This document shows, one piece after another, positions 35,060-44,186 of a stretch of DNA of 64,000 nt. The notes below the pieces were generated by a model. It had not been told where the DNA came from. It saw only the letters and a program-made list of their open reading frames with translations, and did no database searches. The first letter of the stretch is position 1; the number at the start of each line of letters is the position of its first letter. The translations under genes were made by a program, and so were the position numbers. Source of the DNA: Anaerosomatales bacterium (lineage in GTDB: Bacteria; Actinomycetota; Coriobacteriia; Anaerosomatales; SLCP01); contig JARGFT010000001.1 in assembly GCA_029210645.1 (NCBI GenBank), forward strand, positions 65,035-129,034, written 5' to 3'.

Positions 35060-35089
35060 TTGACCACTAAATACCCCGTGGGGTATACT
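35060..35089 (+). promoter_or_regulatory. Promoter of the thioredoxin cluster
   Basis: TTGACC (35060-35065), 18 nt, TATACT (35084-35089). The CsoR-type palindrome covers the spacer and the start of the -10. Confidence 0.75.
35071..35086 (+). promoter_or_regulatory. CsoR-family operator 1 (thioredoxin)
   Basis: ATACCCC-GT-GGGGTAT, 7-bp arms around 2 nt, overlapping the promoter. It matches the two sites at 36432 and 43413. Confidence 0.8.
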
Positions 35090-36079: not shown

Positions 36080-36376
36080 CTATTTCACGCACGATGAGTA
36101 CTTGAGGAAGACGCTGATCGCTTCGTCGATGAGCTCGTCGCGCGTCCTCTCCTCATCGTCGATGAGGCAACGCTTCATGGAGTGGCCGATGATGTGGAGA
36201 CCGACCTGGTTCAGGGCCGACTTCGCAGCCATGATCTGAGTGAGGACGTCTTCGCAGTCCTTTCCCGACTCGATCATGGACTGCAAGCCCCGGATCTGTC
36301 CCTCGAGGCGACGGAGGCGGTTGAGGATACGCGTGCGCTCGGCATCTGCGGAGAGCGGGCCCAGGGAATCTGTCAT
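36080..36376 (-). CDS. CsoR/RcnR/CstR-family (DUF156) transcriptional repressor
   Basis: 98-residue all-helical repressor. ATG 36376 has GAGGTGA 5 nt upstream. NRLRRLEGQIRGLQSMIESGKDCEDVLTQIMAAKSAL is the family signature. Of the CsoR copper ligands Cys-His-Cys, the first and last Cys are present (KDC and KRC) but the His position holds Ser, with a His one residue earlier. The spacing and the GKDC motif resemble the persulfide sensor CstR as much as CsoR. It is divergent from the CDF transporter, with a strong operator between them. Confidence 0.85.
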   Translation of the reverse strand: MTDSLGPLSADAERTRILNRLRRLEGQIRGLQSMIESGKDCEDVLTQIMAAKSALNQVGLHIIGHSMKRCLIDDEERTRDELIDEAISVFLKYSSCVK

Positions 36377-36431
36377 CGAGTTCACCTCGCACGGTGTGGG
36401 GTATCATCACTCATCTGTGATGCATCTGTAG

Positions 36432-36454
36432 AATATACCCCCAGGGGGTATATT
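36432..36454. promoter_or_regulatory. CsoR-family operator 2, between the repressor and CDF genes
   Basis: Perfect palindrome with 11-bp arms (AATATACCCCC) around a single A. It embeds the plus-strand -10 TATATT (36449-36454) and, for the minus strand, TATATT (36437-36432) with TTGCGC 17 nt before it. One bound repressor could shut both divergent promoters. Core spacing is 3 nt versus 2 nt in the other two sites. Confidence 0.85.
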
Positions 36455-38499: not shown

Positions 38500-39894
38500 G
38501 TGGAGCTCGGGCAGAGAACCGAACTCAGACAGAAGGTCACGCTCTCGCCCCAGGTCTACCAGGGCTTGAGCATCCTCGCCATGCCCATCTTCGAACTCCA
38601 GCAGCTCGTCGAGGCCGAGATGCTGGAGAACCCACTTCTCGAGGTCGACGAGATCGACCCCGAGCCGGACGAGGTCGATGAGGCGCGCCAGGAAAGCGCC
38701 GAGGAGGAGCGCGCCTGGGACGAGTGGCTCGACATGTACGACGAGCTCGACTCGGCGGAGTACAGCGGCCCGCGCGATCCCAACGAGGAGGCGGCCAACA
38801 CCGAGGAGTTCGTCGGCGGTTCGGTGAGCTTCTCCGACTACCTCGAACAACAGCTGGCGATGATGGATCTCAGCGACGAGGTCGACGCGGCAGCGCGTGC
38901 GGTGATCGGCTCGCTCGACGCCGACGGGTTCTTCAAAGGGGATTGCAGCGAGGTCGCCGCGCTCGTGGGCGTGACGACCGAACACGCCGAGGAGGGCCTG
39001 CGTGTCGTGCAACAGCTCGATCCACCGGGCGTGGGTGCCCGTAGCCTGACCGAAGCGCTCGTCCTCCAGATGGACTTCCTCGGCCTGGAGGACCCGCTGC
39101 TGGAAGCTATCATCACAGACCACCTCGACGACGTTGCGGCGAACCACTTCCGCAAGATCGCCCGGGCGCTGAAGGCGACGGAGCCGGAGGTCCGTGAAGC
39201 GGTCGCCGCATTGCGCTCGCTCAATCCCCGGCCGGCCGGAGCCTATTCGCCTGGCCCCTCACCGGGCTACATCGTGCCTGACGTGACCATCCGCCGCTTC
39301 GACGACGAGTGGCTGATCATCCCGAACAGCGAGTCCGTGCCCACGCTGCGGGTCAGCCCGCGCTACCGCTCGATGCTGCGCTCGGGTTCGAACGCCGATG
39401 AGGACACCCGTCGCTATCTCAAGGAGAAGATCCGCTCCGCAGAGAGCTTCATCAAGAACGTCGACCGGCGCAAGGACACCGTGAGCCGGATCACGGGTAT
39501 CATCCTCGAGGTCCAGTCGGAGTTCTTCGAAGATGGGAAGGGGCCACTGCGGCCGTTGCGTCTCGAAGACGTTGCGGTTGAACTGGGCGTCCACCTTTCC
39601 ACGGTCAGCCGCGGCGTGACCGGTAAGTACATGGCGACACCTTACGGGCTCTTCGAGCTGAAGCACTTCTTCGCCGGCGGATACCGGACCAGCACCGGGA
39701 TGGACATCGCGTCCACCAGCATCAAACAGAGGCTGAAGGAGCTCGTGGCGGAGGAGGACGCGGTGAAACCGCTGTCCGATCAGAAGCTCGCCGAGTTGCT
39801 CTCCGCCGAGGGTGTGAGCGTCGCACGCCGTACGGTGGCCAAGTACCGCGAGGAGCTACACATCGAACCTTCCTGGGCGAGGAGACGACGGTGA
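38500..39894 (+). CDS. rpoN: RNA polymerase sigma-54 factor
   Basis: 464 residues from GTG 38500. Region I (TELRQKVTLSPQVYQGLSILAMPIFELQQLVEAE) is the Leu/Gln-rich activator-interacting segment. An acidic region II follows, then the core-binding domain, the helix-turn-helix (LEDVAVELGVHLSTVSRGVTGKYMATPYGLFELKHFF) and the RpoN box ARRTVAKYREEL at the C-terminus. All parts needed for -24/-12 recognition are present. It heads an operon with a histidine kinase and an NtrC-type activator, each overlapping by 4 bp. Sigma-54 is generally considered missing from Actinobacteria, so its presence here is notable. Confidence 0.96.
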   Translation: MELGQRTELRQKVTLSPQVYQGLSILAMPIFELQQLVEAEMLENPLLEVDEIDPEPDEVDEARQESAEEERAWDEWLDMYDELDSAEYSGPRDPNEEAANTEEFVGGSVSFSDYLEQQLAMMDLSDEVDAAARAVIGSLDADGFFKGDCSEVAALVGVTTEHAEEGLRVVQQLDPPGVGARSLTEALVLQMDFLGLEDPLLEAIITDHLDDVAANHFRKIARALKATEPEVREAVAALRSLNPRPAGAYSPGPSPGYIVPDVTIRRFDDEWLIIPNSESVPTLRVSPRYRSMLRSGSNADEDTRRYLKEKIRSAESFIKNVDRRKDTVSRITGIILEVQSEFFEDGKGPLRPLRLEDVAVELGVHLSTVSRGVTGKYMATPYGLFELKHFFAGGYRTSTGMDIASTSIKQRLKELVAEEDAVKPLSDQKLAELLSAEGVSVARRTVAKYREELHIEPSWARRRR

Positions 39895-41414
39895 CCGAGC
39901 AGCCCAGGTCGGCCGAGGAGGCGGAGGCGCAGCGCAGGGCGGTTCGGCTGCGCGCGGTGATCATCGTCGTGGCGATGCTCGCGGTGGTCACCACTCTGCA
40001 CCTCTACACGAATGTCGCCGGTGGTGCCGTCATGCTGCACCTGCTCTACCGGCGCCTCTACTACGTCCCGATCCTCTATGCGGCTTTCGTCTTCGGCAAG
40101 AAGGGCGGGTTGCTCACCGCCCTGGCCGCCTCGGTGCCGTTCGCCATCAACGCCCAGATCACCCTCGGAGGATTCACCGGTCGGACCATCGACAGCAGCC
40201 TCGAAGTGTTCATGTACTTCGCCATCGGCGTTCTCTTCGGCGCACTACGGGACATGGAGGAACGCAAGACGGCGGACCTCCGGCAGGTGAGCGCGCGGCT
40301 CGAGGAGGCGTACAAGAAGCTCGAGGAACGCGCCATCCAGCTCATCAACATCCAGGACTACACGCAGTCCATCCTCAGGTCGATCACATCCGGCGTGCTC
40401 ACCATCGGTCCTGACGGCTCGATCACCACCGCCAATCCCGCCGCCGAGCGCCTGCTCGGCATGTCGGAGTACGAGATGGTGCCCAAGAGCATCGGCGCGC
40501 TCTTTCGCGACGACGGAGGACTTGAAGGTGATGTCAGGAAGGTGCTGTCGGGGCGCATCCCGCTCACGCTTCGGGAGGTCCGGATGGTGACCGACGCCGG
40601 GCACGAGATACACGTTCAGGCCTCGACGTCGCGGATGCGGGCGGTCGGCGGTCGTATCCTCGGGGCGGTCGTCACGATCGAGGACGTCTCTGAGGTCAAG
40701 GCGCTTACCGAGCAGCTCATGAGGGCCGACCGGCTCGCGGCGATGGGGGAGCTCACCGCGGGCGTCGCACACGAGGTGCGCAACCCTCTCGGTGTCATAC
40801 GCGCGAGCGTGCAGCTGCTCGAGGACGCCGAGTGCGATGCCGAGCGGGTCCGTCAGGCCGGTGAGGTCATGAAGCAGGAGATCGACCGCCTTGACAAGGT
40901 CATCAAGGCGCTCTTGGACTTCGGCCGCCCGAGCAAACCGACGATGCTGGCGACCGACGTCTCAAGCGTGCTCGGGGACGTCGTGCTGTTCACCAGTCGC
41001 TTCGCGGCGCAGTCCGAGGTCACCATCACAGGGGAGTACGCACCCGATCTGCCCCGTGTCACGGCCGATCCGGACCAATTGAAGCAGGTGTTCCTCAATC
41101 TCATCACCAATGCGGTGCAGTCCATGGAGGAGACAGGCGGAGCCATACGCCTCTCCGCACACGAGCAGGGCGACTTCGTGGTGGTGACGCTCTCCGACAC
41201 CGGCCCCGGGATACCCGCTGAGGACCTCGGGAAGGTGTTCGACCCGTTCTATTCGACCCGGGACGCGGGGACCGGTCTCGGACTGACGATCGTACATCGC
41301 ATCATCGATGAGCACGATGGGCATATCGAACTGGAGAGCAGCCCGGAGGGCACGACGATCCGGGTCGCTCTTCCAACCGCATTCGACTACGAACCGATGG
41401 GGGGCGCTCGATGA
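39891..41414 (+). CDS. Membrane PAS histidine kinase paired with the sigma-54 activator
   Basis: 507 residues from a GTG overlapping the rpoN stop. About four N-terminal helices (residues 15-120, including LYRRLYYVPILYAAFVFGKKGG), a coiled coil (RQVSARLEEAYKKLEERA), a PAS domain (about 160-265), HisKA with phosphorylated His near residue 294 (VAHEVRNPLGVIRAS) and HATPase_c (NLITNAVQSME, DTGPGIPAEDLGKVFDPFYSTR, GTGLGLTIVHRI). Resembles AtoS/ZraS-type kinases that phosphorylate NtrC-family activators. With little extracytoplasmic sequence, it probably senses a membrane or cytoplasmic signal; the ligand is unknown. Confidence 0.92.
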   Translation: MTEQPRSAEEAEAQRRAVRLRAVIIVVAMLAVVTTLHLYTNVAGGAVMLHLLYRRLYYVPILYAAFVFGKKGGLLTALAASVPFAINAQITLGGFTGRTIDSSLEVFMYFAIGVLFGALRDMEERKTADLRQVSARLEEAYKKLEERAIQLINIQDYTQSILRSITSGVLTIGPDGSITTANPAAERLLGMSEYEMVPKSIGALFRDDGGLEGDVRKVLSGRIPLTLREVRMVTDAGHEIHVQASTSRMRAVGGRILGAVVTIEDVSEVKALTEQLMRADRLAAMGELTAGVAHEVRNPLGVIRASVQLLEDAECDAERVRQAGEVMKQEIDRLDKVIKALLDFGRPSKPTMLATDVSSVLGDVVLFTSRFAAQSEVTITGEYAPDLPRVTADPDQLKQVFLNLITNAVQSMEETGGAIRLSAHEQGDFVVVTLSDTGPGIPAEDLGKVFDPFYSTRDAGTGLGLTIVHRIIDEHDGHIELESSPEGTTIRVALPTAFDYEPMGGAR

Positions 41415-42760
41415 AGGGACGCGTTCTCGTCGCCGATGACGAGAAGAACATGCGCTGGGTGCTTGCGCAGGCACTCGAGGCGGAGGAGTTCGAGGTCGTG
41501 CAGGCGGTAGACGGCAAGGAAGCTTTGGCGGCCATCGCCGAGGCCGAGCCCGACCTCATGGTCCTCGACCACCGCATGCCCAAGCCGGATGGCATGGAGG
41601 TCCTGCGACGCGTGCGCGCGCAGGGGAGCACGTTCCCGATCATCATGCTCACAGCCCACGGCAACGTGGAGTTGGCGGTCGAGGCGATGAAGGCCGGGGC
41701 CACCGAGTACCTGACCAAGCCCTTCGACCTCGAAGAACTCAAGATAGCCATCGAGAAGGCGCTCACGATGCGCGGTCTCGCGGCGGAGGTCGAGCGCCTG
41801 AGAGAGGAGCTCGACCGCGAGTACGATGTGGAGGGCATCGTCGCTGCCGAACCCGGCATGATGGAGGTCATCGAGAACATCCGCAAGGTGGCTCCCACCA
41901 GTGCCACGGTGGTCATCTACGGAGAGTCAGGCACGGGCAAGGAGCTCGTCGCCCGCGCGATCCATCAGCTCTCAGACCGCGTCGGCAAGCCCTTTGTCTC
42001 TGTGAGCGCGGGAGCCCTGCCCGAGACCCTGCTCGAAAGCGAGTTGTTCGGGTACGAGAAGGGCGCGTTCACCGGCGCGATGACGGCCAAGCCCGGACGC
42101 TTCGAGCTGGCCAACGGCGGAACGCTCTTTCTCGACGAGATCGGCGACATCACGCCAGGCGTGCAGGTCAAACTCCTGCGGGTCCTGCAGGAGCGCCGGT
42201 TCGAACGACTCGGCGGCACGCGGAGCATTGAGGTGGACGTCAGGGTGGTGGCCGCCACCAACCGGGACCTCCAGCAGCTCATCGCCGACGGTGAGTTTCG
42301 CGAGGACCTCTTCTACCGGCTCAACGTCGTTCCTGTGACACTGCCGCCTCTGCGCGCGAGAATCAGCGATGTCCCTCTGCTCGTGGCGCACTTCCTGGAG
42401 AAGTTCAACGCCGGTGCCAGGAAGATCTCAAGCGCAGCCATGGAGGCGCTCGTCACCTACCAGTGGCCGGGCAACATCCGCGAACTGGAGAACACGATCG
42501 AGCGTATCGTCATCCTGAGCCAGGGCGACGAGATCGGCATCGATGACCTGCCGATGGAGATCAGGCTCAACAGCGGGGCGTGCGTACCCGCCACGGGCGA
42601 GTTCGTCCTGCCCGAGGAGGGGATCGACCTGGAAGAGGTCGAACTCGACCTTGCGCGCCAGGCGCTCTCGCGGACCGGGGGGAGCGTGCCGAAGGCAGCC
42701 AAGCTCCTCGGTCTGACGGCCAAGACGCTCGAAGCGCGGATGCAGCGTTTGGGGCTCTGA
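41411..42760 (+). CDS. NtrC-family sigma-54-dependent response regulator
   Basis: 449 residues. Receiver domain (1-120) with acidic DDE, phosphorylated Asp at residue 53 (MVLDHRMP) and TKPF Lys. AAA+ domain (about 140-370): Walker A GESGTGKELVARAIH, the sigma-54-contact loop GAFTGA, Walker B TLFLDEIGD and REDLFYRLNVVP with Arg fingers. C-terminal Fis-type helix-turn-helix (GGSVPKAAKLLGLTAKTLEARM). It is a full enhancer-binding activator. Overlaps the kinase gene by 4 bp. A sigma-54 promoter begins 12 nt after its stop. Confidence 0.95.
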   Translation: MKGRVLVADDEKNMRWVLAQALEAEEFEVVQAVDGKEALAAIAEAEPDLMVLDHRMPKPDGMEVLRRVRAQGSTFPIIMLTAHGNVELAVEAMKAGATEYLTKPFDLEELKIAIEKALTMRGLAAEVERLREELDREYDVEGIVAAEPGMMEVIENIRKVAPTSATVVIYGESGTGKELVARAIHQLSDRVGKPFVSVSAGALPETLLESELFGYEKGAFTGAMTAKPGRFELANGGTLFLDEIGDITPGVQVKLLRVLQERRFERLGGTRSIEVDVRVVAATNRDLQQLIADGEFREDLFYRLNVVPVTLPPLRARISDVPLLVAHFLEKFNAGARKISSAAMEALVTYQWPGNIRELENTIERIVILSQGDEIGIDDLPMEIRLNSGACVPATGEFVLPEEGIDLEEVELDLARQALSRTGGSVPKAAKLLGLTAKTLEARMQRLGL

Positions 42761-42771
42761 GCGACCGGCGC

Positions 42772-42788
42772 TTGGCATGGGTGTTGCA
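42772..42788 (+). promoter_or_regulatory. Sigma-54 (-24/-12) promoter ahead of the zinc-ribbon/HMA genes
   Basis: TTGGCATGGGTGTTGCA. It matches YTGGCACG-N4-TTGCW with one change (C to T) and correct GG-N10-GC spacing. The predicted start near 42799 lies about 30 nt before the next gene. Confidence 0.75.
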
Positions 42789-42829: not shown

Positions 42830-43174
42830 ATGGCCCGCGAAGGGGACACGAGAAGGACGGTGCTCGCCGGTTTGTCATTCGGCCTCCTGCTCCTGTTCTC
42901 CGTAGCAGCGCTCCTGCTGTCGCTCGTACGGTCCGTGCCGGCGGCACCGGCATGGGGCCTGGCACTTATCGTGGGCACGTTGTGTGCCCTGGTCGCTCTG
43001 CTTCTGCTGGAGCCCGGATCGGAGTCCACCGACGCCGATCCTGTGGTATCGTCATGTGCCGCATGCGGTAGTCCCATGCTTGCCGAGTGGCGACTCTGTC
43101 CGCACTGCGGCCAGATGCTCGAATGCGACATGTTCGCGCCGATGCAAGGAGATCGCACCCCATGGCTGACCTGA
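42830..43174 (+). CDS. Membrane protein with C-terminal zinc ribbon
   Basis: 114 residues; GGGAG precedes the ATG. Two hydrophobic segments (about 12-33 and 40-60) are followed by a short linker and CAACGSPMLAEWRLCPHCGQML, a zinc ribbon with two CxxC pairs. No enzymatic motif is seen. It overlaps the HMA gene by 13 bp, so the products may act together. It is the first gene after a strong sigma-54 promoter, itself just downstream of the NtrC-type gene. Confidence 0.7.
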   Translation: MAREGDTRRTVLAGLSFGLLLLFSVAALLLSLVRSVPAAPAWGLALIVGTLCALVALLLLEPGSESTDADPVVSSCAACGSPMLAEWRLCPHCGQMLECDMFAPMQGDRTPWLT

Positions 43175-43386
43175 AGACCGTTCACCTGACGACAACGGGC
43201 ATGCACTGCGGTTCGTGCGCGATGCTCATCGACATGACAGTCGGGGACCTCGAGGGTGTTTCCGAGGTGAAGACCGACTACGCGTCCGGAGACACGACCG
43301 TCACCTTCGATCCCGAGAAGACTTCCGTGGACAACCTCGTGCAGTCCGTCCGGTCGGCGGGGTACGAGGCTACCGCTACCACATAG
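43162..43386 (+). CDS. Heavy-metal-associated (HMA/CopZ-like) domain protein
   Basis: 74 residues, a single HMA fold with metal-binding GMHCGSC near residue 13 and the usual EGVSEVKTDYASGDTTVTFDP continuation. Stand-alone proteins of this kind carry Cu(I) or other soft metals to P-type ATPases; none is in the window. ATG 43162 has AAGGAG upstream. A longer in-frame reading starts inside the preceding gene and is not needed. A CsoR-type operator lies 26 nt after its stop, ahead of ccdA. Confidence 0.85.
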   Translation: MADLKTVHLTTTGMHCGSCAMLIDMTVGDLEGVSEVKTDYASGDTTVTFDPEKTSVDNLVQSVRSAGYEATATT

Positions 43387-43402: not shown

Positions 43403-43431
43403 TTGTTTCCAAATACCCCATGGGGTATAAT
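43403..43431 (+). promoter_or_regulatory. Promoter of ccdA
   Basis: TTGTTT, 17 nt, perfect TATAAT (43426-43431). The operator palindrome covers the spacer and half of the -10. Confidence 0.75.
43413..43428. promoter_or_regulatory. CsoR-family operator 3 (ccdA)
   Basis: ATACCCCATGGGGTAT, a perfect 16-bp palindrome nearly identical to the site ahead of thioredoxin. Confidence 0.82.
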
Positions 43432-43469: not shown

Positions 43470-44186
43470 ATGGAGATGGGTTTCGCGCTTGCCTTCGCCG
43501 CAGGCGTCGTGTCGTTCCTGTCTCCGTGCGTGCTTCCGCTTATCCCCGGATACTTGTCCTTCATGACGGGAATCGCCGTCGGCGACCTCGGTTCGGGCCG
43601 CGCAGCCCGTGCGGTCATCGGACCCGCGCTTCTCTTCGTCGCGGGCTTCTCTGTCGTTTTCACCTCGCTCGGCGCTTCAGCTTCGGTTCTGGGGTCGTTC
43701 CTTGTCGACTACCGTGTCGTTCTCGAGCGGGTGGCGGGTGTGCTGGTCATCGGGTTCGGCATTCTGATGCTCGGGATAGTGAGAGTGCCATGGCTCTACG
43801 GCGAGGCGCGGGTCGACATGGGCAAGGCACGCGCCTTCGGTCGGGGAGCGGCCTTCGTCATGGGTGCCGCTTTCGCATTCGGCTGGACGCCCTGCGTCGG
43901 ACCGGTGCTCGGTTCGATTCTCGCGCTCGCGGGCACCACTGCCAGCGTCGGGCAGGGCGCGGCTCTGCTGCTGGTGTACTCCCTCGGGCTCGGTCTGCCC
44001 TTCATAGCCACCGCGCTGCTCTTCGGGAGCGCGGGTCCGCTGCTTGCCCGCATCAACCGTCACTCGCTGATCATCAACCGCGTCGCCGGCGTGCTCCTGA
44101 TCGCTGTCGGCCTGCTGATCGTGACCGGCAGGCTCTCCGCGCTCGTCGGCGCGTTGAGTTCGGTGCTTCCCGAGGTAGCTCTCTAG
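43470..44186 (+). CDS. ccdA: CcdA/DsbD-type thiol-reductant transmembrane protein
   Basis: 238 residues, six helices. The paired redox cysteines sit in FLSPCVLPLIPGY (about residue 21) and FGWTPCVGPVLGS. CcdA passes electrons from cytoplasmic thioredoxin to the outer face of the membrane, for cytochrome c maturation or repair of extracytoplasmic thiols. GGGAGG precedes the ATG. The promoter carries a CsoR-type operator, as does the thioredoxin gene 8 kb away, so donor and membrane relay are probably co-regulated. Confidence 0.92.
   Translation: MEMGFALAFAAGVVSFLSPCVLPLIPGYLSFMTGIAVGDLGSGRAARAVIGPALLFVAGFSVVFTSLGASASVLGSFLVDYRVVLERVAGVLVIGFGILMLGIVRVPWLYGEARVDMGKARAFGRGAAFVMGAAFAFGWTPCVGPVLGSILALAGTTASVGQGAALLLVYSLGLGLPFIATALLFGSAGPLLARINRHSLIINRVAGVLLIAVGLLIVTGRLSALVGALSSVLPEVAL

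Follow-up and report, generated by a model that had tools for sequence, protein, structure and literature searches.

Can a sequence that looks like a sigma-54 promoter be a working one in an actinobacterium, and what would it switch on? A 2025 survey described Actinomycetota as effectively devoid of functional RpoN and proposed high GC content as the cause (PMC12316311), and older surveys agree on the lack of RpoN in this phylum (PMC3162934, PMC3372290). The window analyzed here, i.e. the whole stretch of 64,000 nucleotides from a bacterium of the order Anaerosomatales, contains a -24/-12 element on the forward strand at 42772-42788, further referred to as site A. Its sequence and coordinates are exactly those given in a preliminary description of this DNA, which had also stated that all consensus positions but one are matched and that the spacing is exact. 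Both statements were confirmed. The 17-mer TTGGCATGGGTGTTGCA has one mismatch against TGGCACGN4TTGCW; compared as 16-mers, TGGCATGGGTGTTGCA differs from TGGCACGNNNNTTGCW by a single C to T change at one -24 position, and the GG-N10-GC spacing is kept. With this one mismatch, site A satisfies the definition of a sigma-54 promoter (-24 TGGCACG, -12 TTGCW, GG-N10-GC). Transcription would be expected to start at about 42799.

Site A begins 11 nt beyond the TGA stop codon (42758-42760) of the last of three successive forward-strand genes. The first of them, rpoN (38500-39894), codes for a sigma-54 factor of 464 aa with activator-interacting (AID), core-binding and DNA-binding domains (Pfam PF00309, PF04963 and PF04552). 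The protein scores 402 bits against NCBIfam TIGR02395 (cut-off 277) and carries the RpoN box ARRTVAKYR, a box present in all 23 orthologues. With three domains, the RpoN box and a score above the cut-off, the genome can be said to contain a complete RpoN, the activity of which is only inferred. The second gene (39891-41414) codes for a membrane sensor histidine kinase with PAS, HisKA and HATPase domains according to Pfam; its nearest NCBIfam families, AtoS and ZraS, are matched below their cut-offs. The third (41411-42760) codes for an NtrC-type response regulator with a receiver, an AAA+ domain (PF00158, E 2.9e-71) and a Fis-type helix-turn-helix. Its GAFTGA motif, kept in 18 of 18 regulators, identifies it as an AAA+ activator of the sigma-54 type. 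It is the sole strong PF00158 match in its own genome (1.98 Mb in 46 contigs); three other matches are weak (E 1e-7 to 4e-5), and one of these is apparently a ClpC-like gene, judged from position and translation. Because the only sigma-54 activator of the genome adjoins site A, the earlier proposal that the NtrC module probably controls its immediate neighbours is strongly favoured; there are no data on transcription.

Taken alone, site A is weak evidence, since the window contains a second match with one mismatch and the whole genome contains 22 matches with at most one, mostly intragenic. A chance match without function has to be considered: the genome is rich in GC, and comparable one-mismatch matches do occur in coding DNA. 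What decides the matter is conservation. With the RpoN protein as query, a search across 84,980 species genomes gave 23 loci, nearly all labelled Coriobacteriia, Actinobacteria/Actinomycetota or Anaerosomatales (one is labelled Aeromicrobium, probably by mistake). Within 120 nt past the stop of the orthologous response regulator, the motif YTGGCAYR-N4-TTGCW was found at 18 of 19 loci (18 relatives and the window), compared with 0.0005 on average over 2000 shuffles. Identity among the compared loci is 94-100% in the core and 31-72% in the flanks. In the genomes of the order, site A follows the orthologous regulator in 61 of the 66 that carry the activator. In 53 of them it fits the strict pattern, 429-520 nt past the activator domain, and in 8 further genomes it is near-identical, with C as the first base or G as the last (TTGCG). 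Two more genomes (G065 and G015) possess the site at loci that are contig-broken or displaced. Conservation at the orthologous position across the whole order leads us to reject a chance match, to which we give practically no credence. Lack of conservation before orthologues had been named beforehand as an observation that would refute the promoter; site A passed this check.

The only intact loci without site A belong to G022, G028 (the genome of L023) and G033, and these have lost the downstream gene as well. That gene, here called ZnR, starts with an ATG at 42830, 41 nt 3' of site A, and the distance is about 40 nt in most compared loci. The absence of site A wherever ZnR is lost indicates that the two travel together, as expected of a ZnR promoter. 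As a separate observation, strict sites at this position end with TTGCA in 54 of 54 cases, and the other strict sites mostly with TTGCT (53 of 68).

How widespread is sigma-54 in this group? Of 69 genomes assigned to the order by record titles, not by a tree, 66 have RpoN (50 of the 51 good ones). A sigma-54 activator is likewise encoded in 66, and 54 of these have just one. In a spread sample of 396 Actinomycetota genomes, the RpoN cut-off was passed in 18, four of them from this order. A few Actinomycetota lineages outside the order (families f41, f19 and f89) likewise contain full-length matches to RpoN. Some 12 genomes of the order encode an additional sigma-54 activator (L130-L137, e.g. 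G051:C21:263229 and G021:C9:225398); those examined mostly align to the regulator from the window only beyond the receiver, and some of these loci (L131, L134) have -24/-12 sites of their own. Cultured members of the order exist and were described without mention of sigma-54 (PMC9686372). Among the papers listed in our literature search, none links OPB41 with sigma-54 or rpoN. An order that is high in GC, almost universally has RpoN and conserves its promoters means that the high-GC explanation cannot hold in general.

ZnR (42830-43174, forward strand) is a predicted membrane protein of 114 aa. Its N-terminal half is hydrophobic, with likely two transmembrane helices, and a zinc ribbon CxxCG...CPxCG, the cysteines of which are conserved in 18 aligned members, lies C-terminally. 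The Pfam match to Zn_ribbon_3 is weak and below cut-off, and no NCBIfam family was matched. The end of ZnR is overlapped by a forward-strand gene for a metallochaperone-like protein with an HMA domain (43162-43386; Pfam HMA, E 1.3e-14). The domain and the CxxC motif (GMHCxSC in the alignment, here GMHCGSC) are those of an HMA metallochaperone, with the ligand only inferred; the best NCBIfam match, UxxU_metal_bind, is below cut-off. At this position L021 (8249-10710) has a CopA-like P-type ATPase in place of the free HMA protein, and L017 (13940-15010) has four HMA modules.

Next comes a gene for a CcdA/DsbD-type membrane protein (43470-44186, forward strand; Pfam DsbD_TM), a conserved neighbour by synteny. 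The order of genes around the module (ferrochelatase-like, Trx, DUF302, CsoR, CDF, DMT, RpoN, kinase, response regulator, ZnR, HMA, CcdA, GAF/SpoIIE) is largely kept in relatives. A genuine sigma-54 promoter could accordingly serve a longer operon that includes CcdA and the GAF/SpoIIE phosphatase, with a thiol-redox or phosphatase output. The conserved succession from ZnR to GAF/SpoIIE and the short spacing to CcdA would fit such an operon. In the window, however, HMA and CcdA are separated by a CsoR-type operator, TACCCCATGGGGTA (43414-43427, forward strand), which overlaps a TATAAT before CcdA and suggests that CcdA is a separate unit. Operators of the same type precede CsoR at 21 of 21 loci, Trx at 16 of 20 and CcdA at 8 of 17, and in some loci kilobases are inserted between ZnR, HMA and CcdA. 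We regard the longer operon as rather unlikely. The operator over the TATAAT implies a sigma-54 unit that probably extends no further than HMA; as read from the sequence, the unit in this genome is probably ZnR-HMA only, with CcdA outside it. CsoR-type operators (TACCCC-N2/3-GGGGTA) lie in the window at 35072-35085, 36436-36450 and 43414-43427, i.e. before Trx/ferrochelatase-like, CsoR/CDF and CcdA, and are kept in relatives. In a hand alignment, the CsoR-like protein itself (36080-36385) is without the His that copper CsoR has, which would fit a persulfide (CstR-like) sensor.

Site A is not the only conserved site of its type. Genomes of the order typically contain two sites at the strict sigma-54 pattern, versus about 0.3 for the reversed control. 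The second class of strict sites is intergenic and stands before an RNA of about 98 nt, which we call the C-loop RNA; it has two hairpins with C6 loops and ends in a terminator. CUCCUCCCCCCUCA is exposed in hairpin 1, and the terminator consists of hairpin 2, whose loop is CCCCCC, and the T-rich tail behind it. The fold is supported by compensatory changes on both sides in 12 of 20 pairs, and 95% of cells are paired. None of 500 shuffles reached the observed covariation, and all slid controls fell below it. With a covariance model, 67 of the 69 genomes of the order were found to contain the RNA, usually as two unlinked copies (two copies in 50 genomes). No match was obtained in the 292 other Actinomycetota that were sampled. 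An Rfam scan of the window returned tRNAs only. The C-loop RNA is a previously undescribed family. In G022, one of its loci (L086:1518-1730) is expanded to several successive hairpins with C5-C6 loops.

The association of the RNA with the promoter motif is close. Among strict sites other than site A, 52 of 67 stand 7-13 nt before the RNA. The 15 remaining ones, spread over 69 genomes, are about as many as chance would give, and G001:C62 among them actually follows a second activator copy. Approached from the RNA, a -24/-12 element lies about 8-13 nt before the model start in 48 of 49 copies inspected. ZnR-HMA and the C-loop RNAs together account for nearly all sites at the strict pattern. The expected transcription start, 12 nt past the C of the -12 element, coincides with the 5' edge of hairpin 1, which independently indicates that the sites before the RNAs are promoters. 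In the genome of the window, one copy (G000:C33:26393-26490) lies before a WYL/PafC-like gene pair, and the other (G000:C45:48718-48820) is convergent with the end of the pst phosphate transport operon, the genes being named from their translations; the latter copy stands behind the only zero-mismatch site of this genome. Since RNA and promoter are kept together even though their location shifts from family to family, the RNA appears to be a free-standing small RNA and not a leader. The preliminary description is supported as regards the ZnR-HMA pair as a target, and its scope has to be extended by the small RNAs, which are encoded outside the window and were invisible from it.

The targets of these RNAs are guesswork, because pairing energies of the loops with nearby leaders were not better than those of the best random stretches. 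Feedback on the leaders of rpoN, kinase and response regulator found no support either: pairing varied and did not exceed background.

One further explanation of site A can be weighed against these results, namely that another regulator binds there at a conserved site, or that the motif is a processing or RNA element at the 3' end of the response regulator gene, and that in either case it merely resembles -24/-12. In the window, site A is indeed very near the stop codon, and no enhancer site has been found: dyads upstream of the RNA promoter sites did not exceed shuffles (the best dyad equalled the shuffle maximum), and upstream of site A there is coding sequence. Against it, both half-sites fit the sigma-54 consensus with the GG-N10-GC spacing fixed, and the distance from the regulator stop varies from 7 to 71 nt across loci, so the motif is not bound to the gene end. 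It tracks ZnR and not the regulator, the same motif precedes unlinked RNAs at the correct distance, and the genomes having it belong to the set that has RpoN. We consider this explanation very unlikely. In our opinion, site A is with high probability a working sigma-54 promoter, part of a dedicated and near-minimal sigma-54 circuit ancestral to the order, as inferred from comparison of genomes in the absence of transcript data. The original promoter call is thus supported by conservation and widened in scope; transcription itself is without data.

Other candidate targets were less convincing. The one-mismatch sites of the own genome were rejected as a source of further targets, being mostly intragenic, and so was G000:C15:1206, for which the strict pattern gave no equivalent elsewhere in the genus. 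About 110 nt before a ClpC-like gene there is an intergenic sigma-54-like sequence TGGCACCGCGCTTGCT (TGGCACC..., L038, G000:C22:15192-15207, minus strand). Sites weaker than the strict pattern were surveyed non-exhaustively, so the regulon may exceed three promoters. G033 (locus L121) has kept rpoN and the activator and lost both ZnR-HMA and the C-loop RNA; another target may therefore exist there. It contains two identical other sites, C71:8497 and C95:74 (TTGGCACACGGCTTGCT), which may represent a replaced regulon. Other sigma-54 outputs probably exist in G033 and in the genomes with a second activator.

What can be read directly from the genomes is a row of rpoN, kinase and NtrC-type activator (one in most genomes), a conserved promoter directly after it, and the same type of promoter elsewhere in the chromosome before one or two copies of the C-loop RNA. 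From these parts we propose the following circuit. The kinase would sense an envelope signal or a metal/thiol signal and phosphorylate the activator. The nearby HMA protein, CsoR-type repressor with its operators, Trx and CcdA suggest soft metals or reactive thiol/sulfur species. Activator and RNA polymerase with sigma-54 would then switch on ZnR-HMA and the twin small RNAs in response to one signal. At the membrane, ZnR-HMA might bind and hand over a ligand, either a soft metal or a thiol. The exposed CCUCCCCCC loops of the RNAs may repress target mRNAs by pairing with their Shine-Dalgarno stretches. A single signal would in this way both make a metal handler and silence other genes. We find it fairly probable, with less assurance than for the promoter itself, that the whole conserved output consists of one metal-handling gene pair together with two new C-loop RNAs directed against Shine-Dalgarno sequences, and that the sigma factor is kept essentially for these in a phylum said to lack it. 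Such a single-activator switch, kept across an order of actinobacteria, has a regulon that looks small enough to be measured as a whole, a clean case of how few targets keep a sigma factor. Further, a C-loop RNA linked to a defined promoter type and a defined activator offers a direct route to what actinobacterial 6C-like RNAs respond to.

Several known systems invite comparison. In the ZraSR-ZraP (HydHG) system of enterobacteria, a kinase and an NtrC-type regulator act on the sigma-54 promoter of a neighbouring small metal-binding gene. The locus in the window follows the same logic of kinase, NtrC-type regulator and promoter of a neighbour gene, but it has no ZraP homologue, its output is a zinc-ribbon membrane protein and an HMA protein, and rpoN itself lies within it. 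Membership in ZraPSR was rejected: the scores are 399 bits of the 760 needed for ZraR and 203 of 479 for ZraS, and the target ZnR has no family match.

Small RNAs as the output of sigma-54 activators are familiar from LuxO-Qrr, GlrR-GlmY/Z and CbrB-CrcZ, and Qrr exists in multiple copies. The present circuit resembles them in this output; Qrr1, for example, is a sigma-54-driven small RNA (PMC10162802). It differs in belonging to Actinomycetota, in having an unrelated RNA of two C6-loop hairpins, and in the clustering of activator, kinase and rpoN. Chlamydia likewise has a small genome and one sigma-54 activator, CtcC (PMC7482065, PMC3162934), but it belongs to another phylum, and its system acts on membrane and secretion genes rather than on small RNAs.

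The closest likeness in RNA structure is with 6C RNA (Rfam RF01066; mycobacterial B11), also two hairpins with C-run loops in Actinomycetota, and the C-loop RNA meets the description of two hairpins with C6 loops. As members of RF01066 our RNAs were rejected: in none of 69 genomes was the gathering score of 47 bits reached (best 39 bits), and relaxed thresholds were searched as well. Unlike 6C, the C-loop RNA stands nearly always behind a sigma-54 promoter, usually in two copies. B11 represses its targets through its loops, which base-pair with G tracts located at the ribosome-binding sites (PMC10470900), and by analogy the C-loop RNA may work like 6C.
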